Made by a program: the position numbers and the translations under genes
Notes under the pieces: model-generated
Database searches by the model: none
What the model was told of the DNA's origin: nothing
Seen by the model: only the letters and a program-made list of their open reading frames with translations
Shown: piece after piece, positions 1 to 12,346 of the stretch
Layout: each line of letters begins with the position of its first letter
How positions within the stretch are numbered: the first letter of the stretch is position 1
DNA from: Terriglobia bacterium
Lineage (GTDB): Bacteria > Acidobacteriota > Terriglobia > Bryobacterales > Bryobacteraceae
Reading direction: 5' to 3'
Assembly (NCBI GenBank): GCA_020073345.1
Contig: JAIQFI010000025.1
Coordinates: forward strand, 1-64,000
Length of the DNA stretch: 64,000 nucleotides

Positions 1-522
1 AAGTCCGGCCAGCGCGAGGAAGCCGCCAAGTTCGCGCTCGAGTTGCAGAAGGCGAAGAAAGATCTGGCCGCCTACGAAGAGCAGCTTCGCATGCACGAAG
101 AGGCTTATGAGAACAACCTTAAGAAGATCCAGCACGCGGCCAAGAAACTGGGTGAGGTTCGCGAGAAGATCCAGAAATACGACGCCGAACTGAAGATGAG
201 CTCCGCGGAGGCAGAAGTTGCCGCGCTGGCGCAATCCTTCAATATGGATGTCACCACCGATTTCGGTCAGCTCGAACAGATGATTCAGGGCAAGATCGAC
301 AAGAACCGCGGTAAGGCTCGTGTAGCCGCGGATTTGTCGCAAGAGGGGTTGGCCTCCATCCAAGCTGAGGAGAAGATGGAAAAGGTGATGGCCGAAGAAG
401 CGCTTCAGCAGTTCGAGGTGGAGTTGGGGATGCGTTCTCCGGAAACCACGAAACTTGCCGACGCCGCCAAGGATCTTGGTCCCGCGGTGACCGAGAAGAC
501 GACGCAGACGACCACCAATTGA
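1..522 (+). CDS. pspA: PspA/IM30-family membrane-remodelling protein (5' end outside window)
   Basis: The frame is open from base 1, so the N-terminus, including the membrane-binding first helix, lies outside the window; the last 173 residues are visible. They are almost wholly charged coiled coil (runs of Glu, Lys, Ala and Gln, for example the AKKLGEVREKIQKYDAELK stretch), followed by a short Thr-rich tail. PspA/IM30/Vipp1 proteins are bacterial ESCRT-III relatives that polymerise on the inner face of the cytoplasmic membrane and counter loss of membrane integrity. It is the first visible gene of a plus-strand operon with ABC transporter genes and an AAA+ ATPase; the next gene starts 45 bases on behind a strong ribosome binding site. 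Family assignment rests on coiled-coil pattern and context, since the diagnostic N-terminus is missing. Confidence 0.75.
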   Translation, partial: KSGQREEAAKFALELQKAKKDLAAYEEQLRMHEEAYENNLKKIQHAAKKLGEVREKIQKYDAELKMSSAEAEVAALAQSFNMDVTTDFGQLEQMIQGKIDKNRGKARVAADLSQEGLASIQAEEKMEKVMAEEALQQFEVELGMRSPETTKLADAAKDLGPAVTEKTTQTTTN

Positions 523-567
523 CGGCGGTCGAATCAGTAATGGACGGACAAAGGAGGGTATTTCACT

Positions 568-2274
568 ATGCCTGCGGGCAGTCCTAAGCCGGCGTTCTTT
601 TTTGCGGTTCTGTTGGTCGTGGTGGGGCTAGTTGGACTCGGGCTCTGGCGGTTCGGGGCGTTGCCAGGTTCAAAATCCGGGAATATCAGCAAAGAGGAAA
701 TGGCGGGTACCGAGGCGCCGGATTCCGCCGGCATCACTACGGCCAAGGAGTATAAGTACGTTCCCGAAGCCAAGCTGCCGCCGGTTCAGGGTATTTCGAG
801 CTACAAACCGCTTTCGGACCGTACGGTTCGATTCGCGATCAACGTTTGGGCCGGATGGGCGCCGATCATCTACGCCAATAACGGCTTCAAGCCCGGCAAG
901 GTCTGGAAGACACCCAGCGGCAAGGATTTCAAAGTCGAACTGACCCTGATCGACGATCCCGTGGCGATGCGCGATGCCTACGCCGCCGGCAACGTCCATA
1001 TCGGCTGGGGCACGCTCGACATGGTTCCGCTCTTCATGGAAGCCCTGCGGAAAGACTCGCGCGTAATGCCGCGGATCTATCAGCAGATCGATTGGTCGAA
1101 CGGCGGGGATGGAATCGTGGTTCGCGAAAACGTGAAGACTGTCGCCGACCTGCGCGGAAAGACAATCGTGTTGGCGCAGAACTCGCCCTCTCACTTCTTC
1201 GCGTTGAATGCGCTCATCAATGGCGGCGTACAACCCGCCGAAGTGAACTTCAAATTCACCCAGGATGCTTTCCAGGCCGCAGCGGCGTTCAATGCCGACA
1301 AGAAGACCGCAGGGGTTGTCAGTTGGTCACCGGACATCTACAATCTGGCGAAGGTCAAGGGAAATCGTATGCTGGTCAATACCGGCACGGCCAACAAGCT
1401 GATCGCCGACGTCTGGTTCGCTCGCGCCGATTTCGCCAAGGACAATCCCGACATTATCGAAGGCCTAATGCGAGGCATCTTTGACGGCATGGAGGCGCTG
1501 AAGGAGCAACCCAACAAAGCGGCTGCTGCGAAACTCATGGCCGCAGGCTATTCGATTCCAGAATCCGACGCCCTCAGCATGCAGGGCGATGCGCACTCCA
1601 CCAACTGGGCTGAAAACCAGGAGTTCTTTCTCAACCAGAACAACCCCACTAACTTCGAACGCACCTGGAATACCGCCTACTACCTCTATAAACGCATCGG
1701 GGTCGTGTCCGAGAAGACTGAATTCGACCAAGTGATGGATTTCAGCGTGCTCAAGAAACTGGGCAACGATGCCAAATACTCCAGCCAGAAGAACGAGTAC
1801 GACGTTCAGTTTGCGCCCGCCACGGCGGCTGCGATTCAGGGCGAGTCCGACGAGATTCTCACTAAGACCGTCGTGATTCATTTCTCATCGAACTCCTGGG
1901 ACCTGACCAAGAAGACTTCAGAAACAATTAACGGCAAGGTTGTCGAGAACCTATACGATCCGAATGCTCCGTTCGTGGTGGAGGAGATCGGAAAGATGGC
2001 CGGACAGTTCGGAGCCGCCCGCATCGTCATCGAAGGCCACACCGATTCATCGATGAAGGGCCGCGTGCCCGAAGACGCGGTGCAGGAGCTTTCCGCGAAT
2101 CGGGCCAATGCGGTGAAGGAAGCGATTCTGAAGAAATTCCCAACGCTCCAACCGAACCAGTTCACTGCGTCCGGTCTGGGGTGGACTCGTCCCGCGGACC
2201 CGGCCGACCCCGTGAACCAGGCCAAGAACCGCCGCGTAGAAGTGAAGGTCTATCCGCTGGAGACGCCCAAATAG
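568..2274 (+). CDS. ABC solute-binding protein fused to OmpA-like peptidoglycan-binding domain
   Basis: 568 residues. An N-terminal membrane anchor (about 9-30) is followed by a periplasmic NMT1/TauA-type solute-binding domain (about 85-390; motifs such as TVADLRGKTIVLAQNSPSH and a DVWFARADF segment) and a C-terminal OmpA-family domain (about 430-565). The OmpA part keeps the peptidoglycan-contact Asp in GHTD (residue 493), the Arg in SANRAN (512) and the NRRVEV end motif. The start is ATG preceded by AAAGGAGG. The next genes encode the matching permease and ATPase, so this is probably the binding protein of an importer that is anchored both in the inner membrane and to the cell wall. Substrate unknown; databases may call such proteins phosphate-binding, but nothing here proves phosphate. 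Confidence 0.85.
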   Translation: MPAGSPKPAFFFAVLLVVVGLVGLGLWRFGALPGSKSGNISKEEMAGTEAPDSAGITTAKEYKYVPEAKLPPVQGISSYKPLSDRTVRFAINVWAGWAPIIYANNGFKPGKVWKTPSGKDFKVELTLIDDPVAMRDAYAAGNVHIGWGTLDMVPLFMEALRKDSRVMPRIYQQIDWSNGGDGIVVRENVKTVADLRGKTIVLAQNSPSHFFALNALINGGVQPAEVNFKFTQDAFQAAAAFNADKKTAGVVSWSPDIYNLAKVKGNRMLVNTGTANKLIADVWFARADFAKDNPDIIEGLMRGIFDGMEALKEQPNKAAAAKLMAAGYSIPESDALSMQGDAHSTNWAENQEFFLNQNNPTNFERTWNTAYYLYKRIGVVSEKTEFDQVMDFSVLKKLGNDAKYSSQKNEYDVQFAPATAAAIQGESDEILTKTVVIHFSSNSWDLTKKTSETINGKVVENLYDPNAPFVVEEIGKMAGQFGAARIVIEGHTDSSMKGRVPEDAVQELSANRANAVKEAILKKFPTLQPNQFTASGLGWTRPADPADPVNQAKNRRVEVKVYPLETPK

Positions 2275-2314
2275 GCGGCCTGCTCTCGGCATTGTCAGAC
2301 GCCGTAATTCAAAC

Positions 2315-3133
2315 GTGGACGCGAAACAGCCGGGTCTTTTCGATCTCCGAATTCCCCCGTCTCCGCTCATGGGGCGGCTTCTGGGGGTGGGTGCGGTTGC
2401 GTTCGTTCTCGCCGCATGGTTCCTGGCGACGCGCGGTCCGACGCCGGAACAGCGGCTGATTTCGCCCGTGATTCTGCCGTCGCCGCTCGAGGTCGCGCGA
2501 AGTTTCGACGCTCTCTGGAACGAGCGAGCCCTGGCCGCGAGCATTGTGGCGACGCTCCGGCGGGTTCTCATCGGATTCGGGCTGGCGATCGTGGTGGGCG
2601 TGCCGCTAGGGATTATCGCTGGTTCCTGGCGCGTATTGGAATCGGCGGCCATGCCGGTGGCGCTGTTCTCTCGAAATATCCCGGTTGCCGCCCTCATCCC
2701 GCTCACTATCCTGTGGTTCGGCATCGAAGAAACGCAGAAGGTGATGTTTATCTTCATCGCCTGCGTTCCGTTCGTCTATTCCGACGCGGTGCGTGCGATC
2801 ACCTCGGTGCCGGACCGCTACGTCGAAACGGCCGCCACTCTGGGCGCTTCCCAAAGGCAAGTGATCGGCAAGGTGCTGGTCCCGCTGGCGCTGCCCGACA
2901 TCTACAAGAGTCTTCGAGCGCTGTTCGGCATGGCGTTCGGGTATATCATGCTCGCCGAACTGATCAACGCCGAACACGGGCTGGGCTATCTGCTCAGCAC
3001 CAGCCAGAGGCGCGGATTGTCGGAACACATCATTCTCATCCTGATCGTTATCGGCGGCCTCGCATGGGGCATCGATCGCTTTCTGGGATGGGTTCAGCAC
3101 GGCCTGTTTCCTTATCGCGAGGAGGCCGACTGA
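2315..3133 (+). CDS. ABC transporter permease, TauC/SsuC type
   Basis: 272 residues with about six hydrophobic segments (first at about 20-40; others near 85-110, 115-140, 145-165, 205-225 and 235-260). The cytoplasmic EAA-like loop is visible as YVETAATLGASQRQVIGKVLVPLALP, the site that docks on the ATPase. Size and loop match the single-permease importers of the nitrate/taurine/sulfonate class. The start is GTG at 2315, 40 bases after the solute-binding gene; an ATG 54 bases further in is the alternative. The ATPase gene follows after 4 bases, so the two are probably translationally coupled. Confidence 0.9.
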   Translation: MDAKQPGLFDLRIPPSPLMGRLLGVGAVAFVLAAWFLATRGPTPEQRLISPVILPSPLEVARSFDALWNERALAASIVATLRRVLIGFGLAIVVGVPLGIIAGSWRVLESAAMPVALFSRNIPVAALIPLTILWFGIEETQKVMFIFIACVPFVYSDAVRAITSVPDRYVETAATLGASQRQVIGKVLVPLALPDIYKSLRALFGMAFGYIMLAELINAEHGLGYLLSTSQRRGLSEHIILILIVIGGLAWGIDRFLGWVQHGLFPYREEAD

Positions 3134-3137
3134 TTTC

Positions 3138-3959
3138 ATGCCTAGTTCAACGCCAAGTTCAGCGGCGGAGGAACTGATCGTCGAGTTCGACGGCGTCACC
3201 AAGACCTATGGCGAGCACGGCGCCACGGCGATCCGCGACATCTCCTTCAAGGTACATGATCAGTCGGGCTGCGGGGAATTCATCTCCCTCTTGGGGCCTT
3301 CAGGCTGCGGGAAATCGACGATCCTCCGGTTGATTGCCGGCCTGCGTCCGCAGTTTCCCGCGACCAAAGGAACCGTCAAAGTTATGGGGAAACCCTTGGA
3401 AGGTCCGGGCCCCGACCGCGGCATGGTCTTCCAGGACTACACGTCGTTCGACAATCGCACGGTGCTCGATAACATTGCTTTCGGGCTTGAATGTTCGGGA
3501 AAAGCGCGACGCGAGCGTGAAGAGCAGGCCCGCGAGTGGATCGCCAAAGTCGGTCTCGATCCCAAGCAAGATGCCGGCAAGTTCCCGCACCAGCTATCCG
3601 GAGGCATGCGCCAGCGCGTCGCGATCGCGCGCACGCTGATCTTGCGGCCGCGCATTATTCTTATGGACGAGCCGTTCGGCGCGCTCGATCCTGTGACCCG
3701 CCTCAACATGCAGGACCTGCTGGTGACCTTGTGGCGGGAACAGGAAGCCACCGTGTTCTTCGTCACGCATTCGGTCGAAGAAGCTGTCTACCTGGGCGAC
3801 CGCGTTTACATTCTCTCCAAGGCTCCTGGCACTATCATTAAGGAAATGGAATTGCCCAGCCCGGACCGCCCTGCGCGCGAGATGCAACGTGAGGCCAGCT
3901 TCAACCAGATCGTCTTCTCGATTCGCGATATCGTCGAAAAACTCGAGGCCAAACCATGA
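3138..3959 (+). CDS. ABC transporter ATP-binding protein, TauB/SsuB type
   Basis: 273 residues with the full nucleotide-binding set: Walker A GPSGCGKST (about 53-61), Q-loop VFQD, signature LSGGMRQRVAIART, Walker B ILMDEPFGALDP and the switch His in VTHSVEEA. It energises the permease encoded immediately upstream on the cytoplasmic side of the membrane. The last codons overlap the next start (ATGA, 4 bases), showing coupling to the coiled-coil gene and tying the transporter to the AAA/PspA part of the operon rather than being a chance neighbour. Confidence 0.93.
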   Translation: MPSSTPSSAAEELIVEFDGVTKTYGEHGATAIRDISFKVHDQSGCGEFISLLGPSGCGKSTILRLIAGLRPQFPATKGTVKVMGKPLEGPGPDRGMVFQDYTSFDNRTVLDNIAFGLECSGKARREREEQAREWIAKVGLDPKQDAGKFPHQLSGGMRQRVAIARTLILRPRIILMDEPFGALDPVTRLNMQDLLVTLWREQEATVFFVTHSVEEAVYLGDRVYILSKAPGTIIKEMELPSPDRPAREMQREASFNQIVFSIRDIVEKLEAKP

Positions 3960-4825
3960 AAGTGGGCGGCGCCGGAGTCAAGGAGTATCTTAAGCGGGCG
4001 TTCCTCTTTCGCTGGAACCTACTCTTGTTTTTAGGCAGCGCAGCGGCGGCTGTCCTCACTCCGTGGCCCGACGCCGTTCTGCCCCTCGTGTTGGCCGCGG
4101 AGGCATTGTATCTCGGCGGACTCGTGTCAACGCCCAAGTTCCGCGACGCGATCGACGCCCAAGTCTACAAGGAGGCCCAACAACCGCGCGTCTCGCAGGG
4201 CTCGTCCGCAGGTTCAGAATCGCTAGTGGGAATTGTGAGCACGCTGGCTCCGGAGGCTCGCCGCCGTTTTGAAACGCTGCGCTCGCGCTGCCTTGAGATG
4301 CGATCCATTGCGCGCAGCGTTGGCGGCCAAAGTAGTTCTCCAGCGGAGGATCTGAGTACGCCGGCGCTCGACCGCCTTTTGTGGGTGTTCCTGCGGTTAC
4401 TTGCCTCACAGCAGGCTTTGGACCGGTTTCTGCGCTCCACCAGCGACTCGGACATCGGTGCTCGCATCGACGAGGCAAAGAAGAAGTTGGAAAGCGCCCA
4501 AAACGATGAGCGCTTCAAACGGTCCTTGCAGGACAGCGTGGCTGCGCAGGAGTTGCGCCTGCAGAACTACAAGAAGGCAGGCGACAACGCCGTGTTCGTG
4601 CGGCTGGAATTGGATCGTATCGAAGCCAAGATTCAGGCCTTGGCCGAAGCGAGCGTAAACCGGCAGGATCCCGACGCCCTGTCGAGCCAGATCGAAGGCG
4701 TCACCGAGAGCGTGCAGTCCACCGAAACCGCGATGCGTGAGTTGCAGCAAATCACCGGCATCGTCGATCAGATGCAGGCGCCGCCCGCCATTCTCGAGGC
4801 CGATTTGCGCAGGGTCGCTCAGTGA
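3956..4825 (+). CDS. Membrane-anchored coiled-coil protein of the PspA/AAA operon
   Basis: 289 residues, no family recognised. A basic N-terminus (GVKEYLKRAFLFRWN) is followed by two hydrophobic stretches (about 18-35 and 42-60) that could form a membrane hairpin, then a long soluble helical part (about 100-285) rich in Glu, Arg, Gln and Ala with coiled-coil character (EAKKKLESAQNDERFKR; ELDRIEAKIQALAEA). It overlaps the ATPase gene by 4 bases and is followed after 10 bases by the AAA+ gene. Topology suggests an inner-membrane protein with a cytoplasmic stalk, a plausible adaptor between the transporter, PspA polymers and the AAA+ motor; that role is inferred from position only. Confidence 0.75.
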   Translation: MKVGGAGVKEYLKRAFLFRWNLLLFLGSAAAAVLTPWPDAVLPLVLAAEALYLGGLVSTPKFRDAIDAQVYKEAQQPRVSQGSSAGSESLVGIVSTLAPEARRRFETLRSRCLEMRSIARSVGGQSSSPAEDLSTPALDRLLWVFLRLLASQQALDRFLRSTSDSDIGARIDEAKKKLESAQNDERFKRSLQDSVAAQELRLQNYKKAGDNAVFVRLELDRIEAKIQALAEASVNRQDPDALSSQIEGVTESVQSTETAMRELQQITGIVDQMQAPPAILEADLRRVAQ

Positions 4826-4835
4826 GAAACGCCCA

Positions 4836-6575
4836 ATGAAGGCAGGAACACGCATTCCGGAGTGGTTTCCGCCCTGGGCGGCCGAGCTCTCCGAACTCTA
4901 CTTCTCGGGCTCCACTTCACTGTTCGTTGTCCACGGCAACGTGCACGACCTCGTGCCCCTATCCGCAGAGGGTGGTCCTTACGGCAGCCTCTCCGACTTT
5001 CTCGCCGAGCAGGTATTCGGCCGGTGGGATCTGGTGCTGTACTATGATCTGGCGCGCGGTCTCCGAGCTTTCGCTGGACGCGACGGCACGCGACTTAAAG
5101 AGATGGTCGTTCGCGCGAATGACAAAGTCGGCGATCTGGCGGCAGCGCGCAAGGATCCATCCACGGCATTCGCATTGTTAGACCGCTTCGTGCAGAACAA
5201 CATCATGGCCGGCGATGAAAGTGTCAGCGCGGCTATTTTGATTGATTACGCGTCCTTCCTGATCCCGAGCGGCGAGCCTGGACGCCTCAGTCCCGCGGCC
5301 TCTCAGCAAGTAGTTACGCTGCTTAACTGGGCCGCCAGCCCGCACGTCAAACGGCTGAACATGGCCGTGGTGTTGATCGACGAAAGCGCCGCTGCTCTTA
5401 GTGAGCGCGTCACCTCGAATCCCTATGTTTCGGACGTCGAAGTTGCCATGCCGGATGAGCCGTCGCGCGAACGCTTCCTTCAACACGCCGTCAACGGGCG
5501 CGACTTTCGTGCCGCATCGGACTACACCGAAGGCGAGCTGGCCCGCCTCACCGCCGGCATTTCCTTCGTGGATGTGAACGTCATGGTTCAATCCGCCCTC
5601 GAATCGGGCCCACGCCTGGATGCGAAGCGGATGCGAGTATTGAAAAAAGAACTGATCGAACGCCAGTGCCGTGGCCTGCTCGAGTTCATCGAACCGAAGT
5701 GGACCATGGAAGTCCTGGTGGGCCACGCTCCGGTCAAACAACGTTTACGGGAGGACGCGCAACTGCTTAAGCGCGGCGATACCGAAACCCTGCCGATGGG
5801 CTACCTGGTCTGTGGTCCAGTGGGAACCGGCAAGACTTTCCTGGCGCAGTGCATGGCGGGCGAGATGGGTGTGCCCTGCGTTATGCTCAAGAATTTCCGC
5901 TCCAAATACGTTGGCGAAACCGAGGGGAACCTCGAACGCGTTTTAGGCGTATTGCGTGCTATGGGGCCTGTTGTGGTGGTGATCGATGAGGCCGACGCAG
6001 CGCTGGGCGACCGCGAGGACGAGGGTGATTCGGGCACTTCGAGCCGCGTCTTCTCGATGATTGCCGCGCAAATGGGCGACACACGCTATCGCGGCAGGAT
6101 TCTGTGGATGCTGCTTACCTGCCGTCCCGACCTGCTGCCCATCGACCTGAAACGCCAGGGTCGCGCTGAGATCCACATCCCATTGTTCTATCCCTCCGAG
6201 CCAGAGGAGCTCCGGTCCATGTTCGCCGCGATGGCGCGCAAGGCTGGTATTACCCTCGCGCCGGAAGACATTCCCGAAATCCATCTGGCAGGAAAACTGT
6301 CGGGCGCCGACATCGAAGGCATCGTCACCCGGGCAGCCCGGCGCAGCCGCGTGCGCGGCGAATCGGCGCTGGGCAAAGCTGCGCTAGAGCAGGAACTCGC
6401 GGGCTTCCTGCCGTCGCTCGAAGGATTAGAGAAAGAGATGCAAGAGATCGCCGCGATGCTCGAATGCACAGATGTTGAGTTCCTGCCGGAGGTTTTACGC
6501 TCAAGGGTGAAAGAGGCCGGCGGCCGCGAACGATTGCAGCACCGTTTTTTCGAACTGCGAAATCAAATGCGATAA
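4836..6575 (+). CDS. Classical AAA+ ATPase (SpoVK/Ycf46/Vps4-like) with degenerate N-terminal domain
   Basis: 579 residues from the ATG at 4836, chosen because it follows the previous stop by 10 bases; a longer frame exists upstream but would sit inside the previous gene. The C-terminal half is a complete AAA module: Walker A GPVGTGKT (327-334), Walker B VVVVIDEAD (379-387), sensor and second-region-of-homology segment TCRPDLLPIDLKRQGR (428-443), then the small helical lid (about 480-570). The first 290 residues look like a second, inactive NTPase-like domain (LFVVHGNVHDL, AAILIDYASFLIP, VVLIDES) without a P-loop. Family proteins remodel protein complexes. Encoded with a PspA-type ESCRT-III relative, it recalls the eukaryotic ESCRT-III/Vps4 pair; the functional link is inference. 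Confidence 0.88.
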   Translation: MKAGTRIPEWFPPWAAELSELYFSGSTSLFVVHGNVHDLVPLSAEGGPYGSLSDFLAEQVFGRWDLVLYYDLARGLRAFAGRDGTRLKEMVVRANDKVGDLAAARKDPSTAFALLDRFVQNNIMAGDESVSAAILIDYASFLIPSGEPGRLSPAASQQVVTLLNWAASPHVKRLNMAVVLIDESAAALSERVTSNPYVSDVEVAMPDEPSRERFLQHAVNGRDFRAASDYTEGELARLTAGISFVDVNVMVQSALESGPRLDAKRMRVLKKELIERQCRGLLEFIEPKWTMEVLVGHAPVKQRLREDAQLLKRGDTETLPMGYLVCGPVGTGKTFLAQCMAGEMGVPCVMLKNFRSKYVGETEGNLERVLGVLRAMGPVVVVIDEADAALGDREDEGDSGTSSRVFSMIAAQMGDTRYRGRILWMLLTCRPDLLPIDLKRQGRAEIHIPLFYPSEPEELRSMFAAMARKAGITLAPEDIPEIHLAGKLSGADIEGIVTRAARRSRVRGESALGKAALEQELAGFLPSLEGLEKEMQEIAAMLECTDVEFLPEVLRSRVKEAGGRERLQHRFFELRNQMR

Positions 6576-6588
6576 GGAGAAGGTTGCT

Positions 6589-6882
6589 ATGGCGAGGATC
6601 GATTGGTTTGACGACAAGAAAGACACGCCGGTGATCGACGAGCAGGTTCAAAAGTTGGCCACCTTCGTCGAGGCAATGGCCGACGGCGTCATCGAGAAGG
6701 CGGAGCTTGAAAAGCAACAATCGAGCGTCGTGCAGGCGATGAAGGCTGTCCAAAGCGACCTGACCGACGCACAGCACGAGAAGGTTACGCGATTGCTGGT
6801 GGAGATGAGCGCTTACAATATCATGCGGCTGCTGCATGAACTGCAGCAGACTCGATTGCAACGCGCATTTGATAAAACGTGA
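6589..6882 (+). CDS. Small helical protein closing the PspA/AAA operon
   Basis: 97 residues, no family recognised. It starts 13 bases after the AAA+ gene behind AAGGAGAAGG. After a short acidic start (IDWFDDKKD) it is predicted helical throughout, with many Gln, Glu, Lys and Val, and no signal or membrane segment, so it should be cytoplasmic. Its size and amphipathic pattern would fit an adaptor or regulator of the AAA+ protein or of PspA. It is the last gene of the operon: a hairpin follows and the next genes are on the other strand. Confidence 0.7.
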   Translation: MARIDWFDDKKDTPVIDEQVQKLATFVEAMADGVIEKAELEKQQSSVVQAMKAVQSDLTDAQHEKVTRLLVEMSAYNIMRLLHELQQTRLQRAFDKT

Positions 6883-7311: not shown

Positions 7312-10143
7312 CTACTTAGCGATCTGGGTCGTGAGCTTGCGCGTCTCGCTGTAGTGCTCCTGCCACGACGATACTTTCTTCGCCAGCGCCACCTGCACCG
7401 CGGTCACTTTGTATTCAGGGCAACCCGTGGCCCAGTCCTCGAACTCCGTGGTGACGACGTTCGCTCCCGTGAACATGTGATGGAACGTGGTGTACACCAC
7501 GCCCGGCTGCATGCGCTCGGAGATGTGCGCCTTAAGTGTCGTATCGCCGGCTCGGCTTGTGAGCGAAACAAGGTCGCCTTCGTTGATGCCGCGATTCTCG
7601 GCATCCAGCGGATGAATCTCCAGGATGTCTTCCGGGTGCCAGACGTTATTCTCAGTACGCGCGGTTTGCGCACCGACGTTGTACTGCGTCAGAATTCTTC
7701 CCGTCGTCAGAATGAGCGGGAAGCGCCCCGTGGTGCGCTCGTCGGTGGGGATGAATTCGGTGATGACAAAGTTGCCCTTGCCGCGCACGAACCCTCCGAT
7801 ATGCATCACCGGGGTGCCTTCCGGGGCCTTCTCATTGCACGGCCACTGAATGCTGCCCAGCTCGTCGATGCGGTCGAAGCTCACGCCCGCGAAGGTCGGC
7901 GTCAGACGCGCGATCTCGTCCATGATCTCGGACGGATGCGTGTAATGCATCGGGTAACCCATCGCGTTCGAAATCGCCTGGGTAATCTCCCAGTCGCCCA
8001 GACCCGCCATCGGCGCGATTGCTTTGCGAACCCGGCTGATGCGGCGCTCGGCGTTGGTGAACGTTCCGTCCTTCTCCAGGAAGGACGCGCCCGGCAAGAA
8101 GACGTGCGCGAAGCTCGCGGTTTCGTTCAGGAACAGATCCTGCACCACCACGCACTCCATATTGCTCAAGCCCGCCGTGATGTGTTGGGTATTCGGATCG
8201 GACTGGGCAATATCTTCGCCCTGGACGTAGATGCCCCTGAAGGTGCCTTCGATCGCGGCGTCGATCATATTCGAAATACGCAGGCCAGGCTCGCTCTGCA
8301 GCGACACGCCCCAGGCTCCCTCAAACAGATGCCGGGTAGACTCGTCGGATACATGGCGGTAACCGGAGTACTCGTGCGGAAAGGAGCCCATGTCGCACGA
8401 TCCCTGCACGTTGTTCTGGCCGCGTAGCGGATTCACGCCGACGCCCACCTTCCCGATGTTGCCGGTGGCCATGGCGAGATTCGCCATACCCATCACCATG
8501 GTCGAGCCTTGGCTGTGCTCGGTGACACCCAATCCGTAATAGATAGCGCCATTACCGCCGGTCGCGTAGAGCCGCGCGGCGCCGCGAACATCGAGTGCCG
8601 GTACGCCGGTAGCGGCTTCCATCGCCTCGGGCGAATTGCGTTCTTCCGAGACGAACTTGCGCCACTGTTCGAAAGCGGGCATGTCGCAGCGCTCTTTGAT
8701 GTACTCCTCGGCCAGCAGGCCTTCGGTGACCACCACGTGCGCCAGAGCATTGATGAGGGCGACATTGGTGCCTGGCTTGAGCGGCAGGTGGTATTGGGCC
8801 TGAATGTGGGGCGATTTCACCAAGTCGATCCGGCGCGGGTCCGCGATGATCAACTTCGCACCGTCACGCAGACGCCGCTTCATCTGCGATGCGAACACCG
8901 GATGCGCATCGGTCGGATTGGCTCCGATGATCATGATCACATCGGCTTTCTCCACCGAATCGAAATCCTGCGTTCCGGCGGACGTGCCGAACGCGGTCCT
9001 GAGGCCGTAGCCCGTGGGCGAATGGCACACGCGCGCGCACGTGTCGGTGTTGTTGTTGCCGAACGCAGCGCGGATCAGCTTCTGCACCAGATAGGTCTCT
9101 TCGTTGGTGCAGCGCGAAGAAGTGATGCCGCCGATCGAGTCGCGGCCGTACTTGGCCTGGATGCGCTTAAACTCGCTGGCCGTGTGGCTGATAGCTTCTT
9201 CCCAAGTGACTTCGCGCCACGGATCGGTGATCTTGGCGCGCACCATAGGCTTCGTGATTCGATCCTTGTGGGTCGCGTAGCCCCACGAGAAGCGGCCCTT
9301 CACGCAGGAGTGTCCGTGATTCGCCTTGCCGTCCTTGAACGGAACCATGCGGACCACTTCCGATCCCTGCATTTCCGCCTTAAAGGAGCAACCCACGCCG
9401 CAATAGGCGCAGGTCGTGAGAACGGTGTGCTCGCCCTGGCCTTTAGCCAGAACGCTCTTTTCGATCAACGTGGCCGTCGGGCACGCCTGCACGCAGGCTC
9501 CGCAAGACACGCATTCGGAATCCAGGAACGGCTTCCCTCCGGCGGATACTTTGGATTCGAACCCGCGACCCTGAATGGTCAGCGCGAAGGTACCCTGCAC
9601 TTCCTCGCAGGCCCGCACGCAGCGCGAACACACGATGCACTTGGAAGGCTCGAAGCTGAAATATGGATTCGAATTGTCCTTGGGCTCGGGGTTCTTGAAA
9701 TGATTCTCGCCGTCGTAACCGTAGCGGACTTCACGCAAGCCAACCACGCCGGCCATATCCTGCAGCTCGCAGTTCCCGTTCGCTCCGCAGGTCAGGCAAT
9801 CCAACGGATGGTCGGAGATGTACAGTTCCATCATTCCGCGGCGTAGTTTCGAAAGCTTCGGGGAAGACGTGTGAACCTTCATGCCGGGCTCGGCTAGAGT
9901 GGTGCACGAAGCGGGCGTGCCGCGGCGGCCTTCCACCTCGACCAAGCACAAACGGCAGGATCCGAACGCCTCCACGCTGTCCGTGGCGCACAGCTTGGGT
10001 ACTTGCACGCCTGCCACGACGGCGGCGCGCATGACCGACGAGCCGGCCGGCACCGTGACGGGCTTTCCGTCGATTTCGAGCGTTACTAAAGTCTCCCCGA
10101 CCCTCGAGGGAGTTCCGTAATCAGTTTCGTGTATTAGCGCCAT
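7312..10143 (-). CDS. fdsA: NAD-dependent formate dehydrogenase alpha (molybdopterin) subunit
   Basis: 943 residues; catalyses formate oxidation to CO2 in the cytoplasm at a bis-molybdopterin guanine dinucleotide centre. Visible in order: a [2Fe-2S] domain (Cys51, 63, 66, 80), a His/Cys3 [4Fe-4S] site (HPLDCLTCGANGNC, 112-125), two ferredoxin clusters (CIVCSRCVRAC at 169 and CVSCGACVQAC at 211), the catalytic-domain [4Fe-4S] site (CAYCGVGC at 245) and the active-site Cys373-His374 in ARVCHSPTGYGL. The metal ligand is therefore cysteine, not selenocysteine. Length and cluster set match FdsA. It overlaps fdsB by 10 bases. Genes for FdhD and MobA lie upstream and supply sulfuration and cofactor guanylylation. 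Confidence 0.96.
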   Translation of the reverse strand: MALIHETDYGTPSRVGETLVTLEIDGKPVTVPAGSSVMRAAVVAGVQVPKLCATDSVEAFGSCRLCLVEVEGRRGTPASCTTLAEPGMKVHTSSPKLSKLRRGMMELYISDHPLDCLTCGANGNCELQDMAGVVGLREVRYGYDGENHFKNPEPKDNSNPYFSFEPSKCIVCSRCVRACEEVQGTFALTIQGRGFESKVSAGGKPFLDSECVSCGACVQACPTATLIEKSVLAKGQGEHTVLTTCAYCGVGCSFKAEMQGSEVVRMVPFKDGKANHGHSCVKGRFSWGYATHKDRITKPMVRAKITDPWREVTWEEAISHTASEFKRIQAKYGRDSIGGITSSRCTNEETYLVQKLIRAAFGNNNTDTCARVCHSPTGYGLRTAFGTSAGTQDFDSVEKADVIMIIGANPTDAHPVFASQMKRRLRDGAKLIIADPRRIDLVKSPHIQAQYHLPLKPGTNVALINALAHVVVTEGLLAEEYIKERCDMPAFEQWRKFVSEERNSPEAMEAATGVPALDVRGAARLYATGGNGAIYYGLGVTEHSQGSTMVMGMANLAMATGNIGKVGVGVNPLRGQNNVQGSCDMGSFPHEYSGYRHVSDESTRHLFEGAWGVSLQSEPGLRISNMIDAAIEGTFRGIYVQGEDIAQSDPNTQHITAGLSNMECVVVQDLFLNETASFAHVFLPGASFLEKDGTFTNAERRISRVRKAIAPMAGLGDWEITQAISNAMGYPMHYTHPSEIMDEIARLTPTFAGVSFDRIDELGSIQWPCNEKAPEGTPVMHIGGFVRGKGNFVITEFIPTDERTTGRFPLILTTGRILTQYNVGAQTARTENNVWHPEDILEIHPLDAENRGINEGDLVSLTSRAGDTTLKAHISERMQPGVVYTTFHHMFTGANVVTTEFEDWATGCPEYKVTAVQVALAKKVSSWQEHYSETRKLTTQIAK

Positions 10144-11720
10144 GATGGAGTCTCCTGGCCCTTCGGGGCCAACTGCACCGGCGGCGGGGCCGCTGGTTTA
10201 TCAAAGTCTTCCGGGAAATGCTGGACCGCGCTCAGCACCGGGTAAGGCGTCAGCCCGCCCAGCGCGCACAGCGATCCATCCAGCATCAATTCACAAAGAT
10301 CGTCCAGGACCTGCAGATTCTTGGTCCGGTCCTGGTTGGCGATGATCCGGTCGATCACCTCGACACCGCGCGTCGAGCCGATGCGGCAGGGCGTGCATTT
10401 GCCGCAACTTTCGATGGCGCAGAATTCCATGGCGAAGCGGGCTTGCCGCGCGAGATCCACCGTGTCGTCGAACACCACGATGCCGCCGTGCCCGACTAGA
10501 CCCTTTTTCGCCGCGAACGCTTCGTAATCGAGCGGCGTGTCGAGCAGCGATTCCGGGAAGTACGCTCCCAGCGGCCCACCGACTTGCACTGCGCGGAACG
10601 GCCGCCCCGAAAATGTCCCGCCGCCGAAATCGTAGATCGCTTCGCGCAAGGTGATCCCGAAGGCTTTCTCGACCAGTCCGCCGTACTTGATATTGCCCGC
10701 GAGCTGGATGGTCAGCGTGCCGCGCGATTTGCCCATGCCGAAATTCTTGTAATAGTCGGCGCCCTTGTCGAGAATAATGGGTATCGTAGCCAGCGAGATG
10801 ACGTTGTTGACCACGGTCGGCTTGCCGAACAGGCCCTCGATCGCCGGCAGAGGCGGCTTCGGCCGGATCTGGCCGCGCTTGCCTTCCAGGCTTTCAAGCA
10901 GCGAAGTTTCCTCGCCGCAAATGTACGCGCCCGCGCCCAGGCGAACATCCAGATCGAATCGCTTGCCGCTGCCCGCGACGTTCGCGCCCAGGTAGCCCTT
11001 TTCGTAAGCGATAGCGATCGCGCGCTTCATCGTCTTGAATGCATGCGGATATTCCGAGCGAAGATAGATGAAGCCGCTGGTCGCGCCCACCGCGAATCCG
11101 GCGATGGTCATGCCCTCGATGAGCACGAACGGATCGCCTTCCATAATCATGCGGTCGGCGTAGGTGCCGCTGTCGCCTTCGTCCGCGTTGCAGACGATAT
11201 ATTTCTGATCGGCGGCGGTCTTGAGAACCGTCTTCCACTTGATGCCCGTCGGAAAACCCGCGCCGCCGCGTCCGCGCAGTCCCGAGTTCGTGACTTCCTC
11301 GACCAGCGCGTCCGGCGTCATCGTAAGGGCGCGCTGTAGGCCTTTATAACCGTCGCGGCTGACATAATCGGAGAGCGAAAGTGGATCGACGATGCCGCAA
11401 CGCGCGAAGGTCAGGCGCTCCTGCTTTTTAAGGTACGGAATCTCTTCGGTGAGTCCCAGACAGAGAGCGTGCGGTTTCCCTTCCAGGAAGCCAGAGTCAA
11501 AAAGTCCGGCCACGGCTTCGACAGTGACAGGACCGTAGGCAATCCGACCTTTGGCGGTTTCCACTTCCACCAGCGGCTCTAGCCAGAACAGGCCGCGCGA
11601 GCCGTTGCGAACCACGATTACGTCCAGACGCCTGGCGGCCACTTGTTCCGTGATCGCACGGGCTACGGCATCCGCTCCCACCGAGAGTGCCGCCATGTCA
11701 CAGGGGACGAATACCTTCAC
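10134..11720 (-). CDS. fdsB: Formate dehydrogenase beta (diaphorase, NuoF-like) subunit
   Basis: 528 residues. It carries the FMN/NAD-binding region (GRGGAGFPTGIKWKT, then the CNADEGDSGTYADR segment) and the C-terminal [4Fe-4S] motif ESCGKCTPCRIGSTRG of NuoF/HoxF proteins. It takes electrons from FdsA and reduces NAD+. The N-terminal about 110 residues form the thioredoxin-like extension typical of FdsB. The gene overlaps fdsG by ATGA and fdsA by 10 bases, so the three subunits are translationally coupled. Confidence 0.95.
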   Translation of the reverse strand: MKVFVPCDMAALSVGADAVARAITEQVAARRLDVIVVRNGSRGLFWLEPLVEVETAKGRIAYGPVTVEAVAGLFDSGFLEGKPHALCLGLTEEIPYLKKQERLTFARCGIVDPLSLSDYVSRDGYKGLQRALTMTPDALVEEVTNSGLRGRGGAGFPTGIKWKTVLKTAADQKYIVCNADEGDSGTYADRMIMEGDPFVLIEGMTIAGFAVGATSGFIYLRSEYPHAFKTMKRAIAIAYEKGYLGANVAGSGKRFDLDVRLGAGAYICGEETSLLESLEGKRGQIRPKPPLPAIEGLFGKPTVVNNVISLATIPIILDKGADYYKNFGMGKSRGTLTIQLAGNIKYGGLVEKAFGITLREAIYDFGGGTFSGRPFRAVQVGGPLGAYFPESLLDTPLDYEAFAAKKGLVGHGGIVVFDDTVDLARQARFAMEFCAIESCGKCTPCRIGSTRGVEVIDRIIANQDRTKNLQVLDDLCELMLDGSLCALGGLTPYPVLSAVQHFPEDFDKPAAPPPVQLAPKGQETPSWR

Positions 11721-12187
11721 GCGCGCCTCCGGACGTCATCGATTAAGAAGTCGGCTACGTGAACGGATACCCGGCCATACGGTTTGCCGTCGAGCATCAC
11801 AGCCGGCGAAAGCGCGCAATTGCCGAGGCAATAGACCGCATCCAGACTGAAGCTCCCGTCGGCCGTGGTCTCGCCTAGTTTGGCTCCCAAACGCTTCTCA
11901 ACGTGGTCGATCACCCGGTCGCAGCCCATGGACTGGCAGGCCTCGGCCCGGCACATCTTCAGGACATGGCGGCCAGGGGGCGCATGACGAAAATCGTGGT
12001 AAAAGCTGATGACCCCGTGCACTTCGGCCTTGGAAATATTGACAGCGTCCGCGATCAGGGGGACGGCGGCTTCGTCCACGTATCCGAACTCTTCCTGTAA
12101 TGCATGCAAAATCGGCAGTACCGCGCCTGGAAGCTGCTGAAGTTCCTGGATGATGGAGGTAGCTCGGTCAGTATCCCAAGTGTGCAT
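11717..12187 (-). CDS. fdsG: Formate dehydrogenase gamma (NuoE-like [2Fe-2S]) subunit
   Basis: 156 residues from the ATG at 12187 (MHTWDTDRATSIIQELQQL); a longer frame runs upstream but the conserved NuoE start and normal size favour this one. The [2Fe-2S] ligands are seen in CRAEACQSMGCD and CLGNCALSPAVML. It passes electrons with FdsB to NAD+. It is the first gene of fdsGBAD. No strong Shine-Dalgarno sequence precedes it. The 160 bases upstream, to the end of fdhD, contain a TACAAT box that lies too close to the start to be trusted as a promoter. Confidence 0.92.
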   Translation of the reverse strand: MHTWDTDRATSIIQELQQLPGAVLPILHALQEEFGYVDEAAVPLIADAVNISKAEVHGVISFYHDFRHAPPGRHVLKMCRAEACQSMGCDRVIDHVEKRLGAKLGETTADGSFSLDAVYCLGNCALSPAVMLDGKPYGRVSVHVADFLIDDVRRRA

Positions 12188-12346
12188 AGGGTTCCATCGT
12201 TTATTGTAGCTCTTATGCGCTATCGATTCCTGGTCGACACCCGAATCGGGCGACTGCCCTCCCCACTGCGCGCAACCTTTCCACATGGTCTGGCCGGAGA
12301 GTGAAAATACCTGATTTTGCAATAGTTAGGGGTTGAGATGGCGATG

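Follow-up and report, generated by a model that had tools for sequence, protein, structure and literature searches.

The window analysed here comprises bases 1-64,000 of contig JAIQFI010000025.1 from the 6.23 Mb genome of a Terriglobia bacterium, and the open reading frame listing places seven plus-strand genes (g1 to g7, Table 1) across its first 6,882 bases. They encode a PspA/IM30 protein of the ESCRT-III (endosomal sorting complex required for transport) superfamily, an ATP-binding cassette (ABC) importer whose substrate-binding protein (SBP) carries an OmpA domain, a tandem AAA+ protein and two helical proteins, g5 and g7. The locus is real, conserved and for the most part already described; what is new here are the counts across genomes, the two ways in which the genes are ordered, a pair of conserved helper families and a motif in the tail of PspA. 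We lean, by a small amount, towards reading it as a bacterial ESCRT-III-type membrane module with an AAA+ motor of its own, which would dismantle PspA via its tail.

The layout had been proposed from the letters of the DNA and their translations (hereafter the sequence-only reading), and all seven reading frames lie where that reading put them. The gaps of no more than 45 bases that it claimed hold with ATG 4836 as the start of the AAA gene; an earlier GTG lies in the same frame at 4737, and that start would overlap g5. The ATGA overlap between g4 and g5 is located at 3956-3959. In a Pfam scan of the window proteins, the cut-offs were passed by OmpA and NMT1/THI5 (g2), BPD_transp_1 (g3), ABC_tran (g4) and AAA (g6), and no family exceeded its cut-off for g5 or g7.

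Table 1. Genes and features of the PspA-AAA+ locus, with positions in the window.
Feature	Position	Strand	Basis
g1: PspA/IM30 (ESCRT-III superfamily), C-terminal 173 residues; 5' part on contig C44	1..522	+	PF04012
K-D-L-G-P tail motif of PspA, candidate docking/pulling site for the AAA+ protein	469..483	+	motif counts
g2: NMT1/SsuA/TauA-type SBP with C-terminal OmpA peptidoglycan-binding domain and N-terminal membrane anchor	568..2274	+	Pfam
g2 hydrophobic N-terminal helix (residues 9-27, by eye), likely uncleaved anchor	592..648	+	
g2 OmpA domain (residues 465-554)	1960..2229	+	PF00691, 41.3 bits
g3: ABC permease	2315..3133	+	PF00528, 70.6 bits
g4: ABC ATPase, taurine/nitrate/sulfonate type	3138..3959	+	PF00005, 102.2 bits
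g5: membrane-hairpin helical protein, 289 residues, outside known families	3956..4825	+	AlphaFold2 model, linkage
g6: tandem AAA+ protein, 579 residues; 1-288 inactive AAA, ~319-510 active AAA	4836..6575	+	PF00004, 85.8 bits
g7: three-helix protein, 97 residues, outside known families	6589..6882	+	linkage, AlphaFold2 model

The first gene is cut by the contig start, and its fragment matches PF04012 at profile positions 83-206 only, scoring 26.2 bits against a cut-off of 33.9 because the front of the gene is missing. A PspA N-terminus was found in the same genome on contig C44 (26690-26950, model positions 1-87), where it begins MILGKFWSAFRAQVNKIANIFWEADPIAQMQ from a TTG start; the N-terminus MILGKFWSAFRAQVNKIANIFWEADP has an amphipathic look, judged by eye only. 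The C44 copy and the window start have 18 exact bases in common and C44 then carries differing sequence, so that its end is no clean join. This contig end (26690-27135, L245) holds the PspA N-terminus followed by about 190 bases unlike the window, for which an assembly break and a strain variant are the candidate explanations. All 36 full-length close relatives match PF04012 at E ≤ 0.01 (L002 with 41.2 bits over positions 1-214), and the divergent PspAs that were tried, seven in all, exceed its cut-off. Together with the N-terminus recovered from its own genome, the full-length relatives bear out the identification of g1 as PspA and remove the objection that the first gene might be something else. 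Searched against solved structures, the PspA profile returned no solved PspA and one MerR row at E 0.058. A divergent locus (L112:6952-8801, minus strand) contains tandem, near-identical copies of the PspA gene, one of them with an altered C-terminus.

A scan for the AAA gene recovered at least 79 loci in genome records, which by their titles belong to planctomycetes (53), acidobacteria (18), myxobacteria/deltaproteobacteria (5), a gemmatimonad (1) and other bacteria (2); many of the planctomycete loci are mutually close and a few come from a single assembly. Adding the window and two stretches taken from relatives brought the loci scored to 82, many of them on contigs that end too early for all genes, and PspA was present in 70, the SBP-OmpA protein in 59, the permease in 53, the ABC ATPase in 52, g5 in 53 and g7 in 72. 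Where a locus could be judged, either because the gene was seen or because the flanks sufficed, the counts were 70/73 for PspA, 72/73 for g7 and 59/65 for g2, and all seven genes occur in 22 of the 30 loci with full flanks. This neighbourhood survey shows the gene set picked out by the sequence-only reading to be conserved in related genomes, far above chance. Two gene orders were found: PspA-SBP-permease-ATPase-g5-AAA-g7, in 17 complete loci including the window, and PspA-AAA-g7-SBP-permease-ATPase-g5, in 27 complete loci. The helper genes keep their neighbours, with g7 directly 3' of the AAA gene in 72/72 loci that have both and g5 directly 3' of g4 in 50/50, which upholds the tight linkage proposed between the coiled-coil gene g5 and the ABC ATPase gene. 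The ATGA overlap of these two genes had been taken to argue for one machine. The overlap is present, but because only 14 of the 50 loci overlap it was dropped as proof of a single machine, a reading further weakened by the absence of SBP-OmpA from most of the genomes searched whole (below).

PspA and the AAA+ protein also co-occur at the level of whole genomes. In a sample of 396 genomes of the window's phylum (AAA profile at E ≤ 1e-80, PF04012 at E ≤ 1e-4), the AAA profile matches 60 genomes and PF04012 matches 125. PspA is found in 56 of the 60 genomes with the AAA gene and in 69 of the 336 without it (Fisher p 4e-28, without correction for shared ancestry), in line with the co-conservation of PspA and a dedicated AAA+ protein that had been proposed; 42 of the 60 have a PF04012 match on the strand of the AAA gene and no more than 10 kb from it. 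One of the four AAA genomes that lack any PF04012 match (G380) has a partial PspA at the end of a contig (L111), recognised with a PspA profile built for this analysis. Within the window's own genus the AAA+ protein is rare, with a relative (E ≤ 1e-50) in 1 of 22 other genomes, at 42% identity.

Whole-genome searches covered twelve genomes, ten of which had been chosen for parts missing beside the AAA gene, and the assemblies may be incomplete. A PspA of this kind is present in 11 of them. Among the three genomes in which it is missing beside the AAA gene despite sufficient flanks, it was found elsewhere in the genome in two, and the L021 genome carries PspA, the transporter genes and g5 together on another stretch. 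An SBP-OmpA of this kind (E ≤ 1e-60) occurs in three of the twelve, and eight of the nine genomes lacking it have this PspA; the transporter is therefore optional. Across 59 AAA loci of the phylum sample (L100-L158), with or without ABC genes, the PspA profile matches in 32 and the g5 profile in 43, and in 12 loci PspA, g5 and the AAA gene stand without adjoining ABC genes (L106-L108, L113, L115, L120, L122, L124, L125, L127, L137 and L144, with L106 cut downstream). PspA and the AAA+ protein are the steadier part of the locus and the ABC part is optional.

These counts bear on the alternative that the AAA+ protein serves the ABC transporter and g5 as a quality-control unfoldase, with PspA merely guarding the surrounding membrane. 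The invariable adjacency of g4 and g5, overlapping in 14 loci, and the completeness of 22 of the 30 full-flank loci would fit such a role, whereas the eight genomes that keep this PspA among the nine without this SBP-OmpA, and the 12 of 59 loci with PspA, g5 and AAA only, speak against it. We consider this explanation improbable.

The PspAs closest to that of the window share a conserved C-terminal tail with K-x-[LI]-G. Expressed as [KR].[LIM]G[PSTAG], the motif is found in 69/70 tails of close AAA-linked PspAs, in 26/29 of divergent AAA-linked ones, in 4/4 of the same subfamily with the AAA gene elsewhere in the genome, in 5/23 of the same subfamily without the AAA gene (the f24 group of 23 genomes, hand-picked from profile scores and family labels, ten of them searched for AAA at E ≤ 1e-20 and the rest at E ≤ 1e-80 only) and in 0/39 of canonical or other unlinked PspAs. 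The strict form, which ends in P, gives 34/70, 21/29, 4/4, 0/23 and 0/39 for the same groups in that order. Four entries were dropped from the counts: L100 and L101, which belong to the close subtype, L111, which sits at a contig end, and the altered copy of L112. Left out of the controls were the AAA-linked L179, L181, L189 and L190, along with L161 and L230, which have no profile hit. A looser pattern, K.[LIM]G, occurred in 25/33 linked and 13/66 unlinked PspAs and was replaced by the two forms above because it caught helix residues. Judged by these counts, the tail motif tracks the AAA+ protein across divergent PspA subfamilies, the pattern expected of a docking or pulling site, and we propose it as a candidate site. 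The pattern was set after the tails had been inspected and the f24 group was hand-picked, and the motif is therefore put forward as a hypothesis and not as a test of one.

The same data speak to a more modest explanation, that of neighbourhood only, under which the genes are co-transcribed for envelope maintenance and PspA and the AAA+ protein make no physical contact. PspA-g5 pairs without an AAA gene, and genomes in which AAA and PspA lie far apart, would be in keeping with it. Against it, the presence of PspA and of the AAA gene is strongly correlated even where the two are unlinked, and all four same-subfamily PspAs whose AAA gene lies elsewhere in the genome retain the tail motif. Mere neighbourhood thus defined appears highly unlikely to us.

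The AAA+ protein itself keeps Walker and candidate Arg finger residues of an active ATPase in its C-terminal half: GxxxxGK[ST], the Walker B DE and two candidate Arg fingers are each found in 44/44 sequences, and the pore-loop position is aromatic (Y/F/W) in 44/44. The Arg finger, pore-loop and sensor-1 positions are roles that we take these residues to have. The N-terminal half lacks Walker A in every one of the 44 sequences, and its profile matches the AAA domains of p97/Cdc48 (E 9e-7 to 1e-5), both of which agree with the inactive N-terminal AAA copy suggested earlier. Aligning the two halves against each other with hhalign gave a weak result (E 0.031, probability 1.6%), and the case for a dead N-terminal AAA domain therefore rests on the p97/Cdc48 profile match instead. 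For the whole protein, the best matches among solved structures and NCBIfam are of Cdc48/p97 type, the NCBIfam profiles giving 2.9e-19 for CDC48 against 1.6e-10 for CdvC (profile scores only). No MIT domain is among the Pfam matches of the window's AAA+ protein at E ≤ 1, the N-terminal half being an AAA copy. The close kinship with Vps4 suggested in the sequence-only reading is not supported: Cdc48/p97-type profiles score better, no MIT domain was recognised at that threshold, and by these profile scores the protein appears closer to Cdc48/p97.

The binding protein of the transporter is 60-79% identical to 30 of its 32 aligned relatives and 28% identical to the other two. Its OmpA domain has Asp493 and Arg512 in 33/33 sequences, residues that presumably serve peptidoglycan binding as in other OmpA-like domains. 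A hydrophobic N-terminal run is kept in the alignment, with the lipobox absent by eye, and given this helix and the OmpA domain g2 could bridge membrane and wall. The best NCBIfam matches were the SaoP and taurine permease types for g3 and the taurine, SaoA and nitrate types for g4, below their cut-offs; substrate types across the transporter (urea, sulfonate, taurine, nitrate) all fall under the NCBIfam cut-offs. Two loci have a second kind of SBP-OmpA, 28% identical to that of the window, about 1.5 kb after g7 (L029:12334-14037 and L048:12619-14322), and there the adjoining frame matches a VWA profile without a DxSGS motif. A VWA-type protein, recognised by eye from DTSGS, stands directly before PspA in 8/19 loci of the window's gene order (L005, L007, L008, L010, L018, L022, L023 and L028; gap -4 to 233 bases) and is a possible eighth gene. 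In the window's genome, the remaining open reading frames listed for the 1.5 kb that precede PspA are on the opposite strand.

A wall-tethered binding protein invites the alternative that the locus is a sensor, in which this protein and the ABC ATPase inform PspA of a ligand or of the distance between wall and membrane, and the AAA+ protein regulates how much free PspA is available to control stress signalling, with no cutting or reshaping of membranes. The by-eye N-terminal helix of g2, the invariant Asp493 and Arg512 of its OmpA domain and the VWA-type protein ahead of PspA in eight loci would be compatible with such a role. The ABC part is dispensable, however, and no regulator was recognised among the 14 neighbour clusters listed around the loci, which are unannotated. 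We regard the sensor explanation as unlikely.

The AlphaFold2 model of g5 is helical throughout (predicted local distance difference test score, pLDDT, 86.5), with a hydrophobic hairpin near the N-terminus assigned by eye and charges that suggest a cytoplasmic helical part, and that of g7 has three helices (pLDDT 78.3). Fold searches with either model returned nothing above the level of unrelated helical bundles, and none of the g7 rows was named as an MIT domain. The g5 rows reach Z scores up to 9.6, not significant for helical bundles; BAR-domain and Vipp1 rows were not used as evidence, as unrelated helical bundles score alike, and one viral Snf7 row had E 0.57. Sequence searches of solved structures gave weak rows only (best E 0.012 for g5 and 0.3 for g7), hhalign of g5 against PspA gave E 0.49, and the Snf7 hidden Markov model reached its cut-off in 0/11 genomes and likewise in 0/14 controls.

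Much of this architecture is in print. The accessible text of Ravi et al. (2024; PMC11237479) describes an operon of PspA, a two-AAA protein with an inactive N-terminal copy, ABC components and a PBPB-OmpA protein, for which an ATP-driven membrane remodelling tied to solute transport is proposed in an ESCRT-like reading. The window locus is like it in PspA, the two-AAA protein with its inactive N-terminal copy, the ABC ATPase, the permease and PBPB-OmpA. Ravi et al. also name a transmembrane (TM)-bearing Snf7 homologue, possibly corresponding to g5, and prevalence, gene orders, the tail motif, g7 and the VWA gene do not feature in the accessible text. Two archaeal ESCRT loci, Meth_adaptin and Halo_adaptin, are comparable by description (available text of PMC10936438): one has a ProX-type substrate-binding protein, and in the other a weakly PspA-like gene precedes that of a Vps4-like ATPase, whose N-domain is of Cdc48 type. 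They differ from the window in being archaeal and in their other gene content. No dedicated bacterial motor is named in the available portions of PMC12358876 and PMC13051332, and no experimental study of the module was found in the literature searched, which lacks most subscription papers.

From the protein identities, conservation, gene orders, motif residues and the tail motif with its distribution, we infer a working model for the module, in which PspA would polymerise and would use its N-terminal segment to bind the inner leaflet. The membrane-hairpin protein g5 may anchor or nucleate it. The AAA+ ring would engage the [KR]-x-[LIM]-G motif of the PspA tail and pull subunits through its pore, disassembling the polymer, with the dead N-terminal AAA ring as a putative platform for assembly or docking and g7 possibly assisting the AAA+ protein. 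The ABC importer and its wall-tethered binding protein would be an add-on through which the module responds either to a solute or to the distance between wall and membrane. The PspA/AAA+ mechanism put forward in the sequence-only reading is in this respect plausible, and the coupling to import that it adds is conjectural.

Several observations weigh against this model. The sensor-1 position of the AAA+ protein, placed by eye, is Ser in 20, Ala in 15 and Cys in 9 of the 44 sequences and never Asn. Three AAA-linked PspAs (L105, L106 and L137) are without the tail motif, five same-subfamily PspAs have it with no AAA gene, and the pattern was fitted after the fact to sequences that are related to one another. 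In the L024 genome the AAA gene, g5 and g7 are present and a PspA of this kind is missing, the g7 profile (E ≤ 1e-3) finds no match in the divergent loci L102-L158, and six genomes of family f24 keep a PspA-g5 pair without an adjacent AAA gene (L231-L236). According to the available text of a 2024 structural study of PspA (PMC11746142), PspA rods are active on liposomes in vitro without a partner AAA+ protein, and Synechocystis has PspA and lacks PspF; that study suggests disassembly via chaperones or PspF.

An AAA search of ten f24 genomes (E ≤ 1e-20) returned none in eight, a generic match in one and a fragment in one. The fragment (G365:C47:10255-10689, a frame of 152 residues) matches the C-terminal quarter of the AAA+ protein only, at model positions 433-582 of 588. 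It is possibly the remnant of an AAA+ gene, in a family that has otherwise retained the PspA-g5 pair but not the AAA gene.

Like the ESCRT-III/Vps4 systems of archaea and eukaryotes, the locus encodes a polymer protein of the ESCRT-III superfamily together with an AAA+ ATPase, and the C-terminal tail motif is its candidate recognition site. Unlike Vps4, this ATPase is tandem and Cdc48-like and has no recognised MIT domain. It resembles Cdc48/p97 in its tandem AAA architecture and in the best solved-structure matches of both halves, and differs from it in a first AAA copy without Walker A and in having no Cdc48 N-domain among its Pfam matches at E ≤ 1. A bolder proposal, which we consider somewhat less likely than not, is that at least four bacterial phyla (by record titles) have a true cycle of ESCRT-III and dedicated AAA+ protein, in which a tandem Cdc48-like motor recognises the C-terminal [KR]-x-[LIM]-G of PspA as Vps4 does the tails of ESCRT-III; this cycle would have arisen apart from Vps4, and many lineages would have coupled it to an ABC importer tethered to the wall. 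If true, it would be an independent bacterial counterpart of Vps4/ESCRT-III, and ESCRT systems with both parts would not be limited to archaea and eukaryotes. With a conserved motor gene and a co-varying tail motif, PspA disassembly becomes testable with two purified proteins.

Downstream of the operon and convergent with it, three overlapping genes occupy 7312-12322 of the window on the minus strand; by eye they resemble genes for a subunit of formate dehydrogenase or NuoG type and for partners like NuoF and NuoE.

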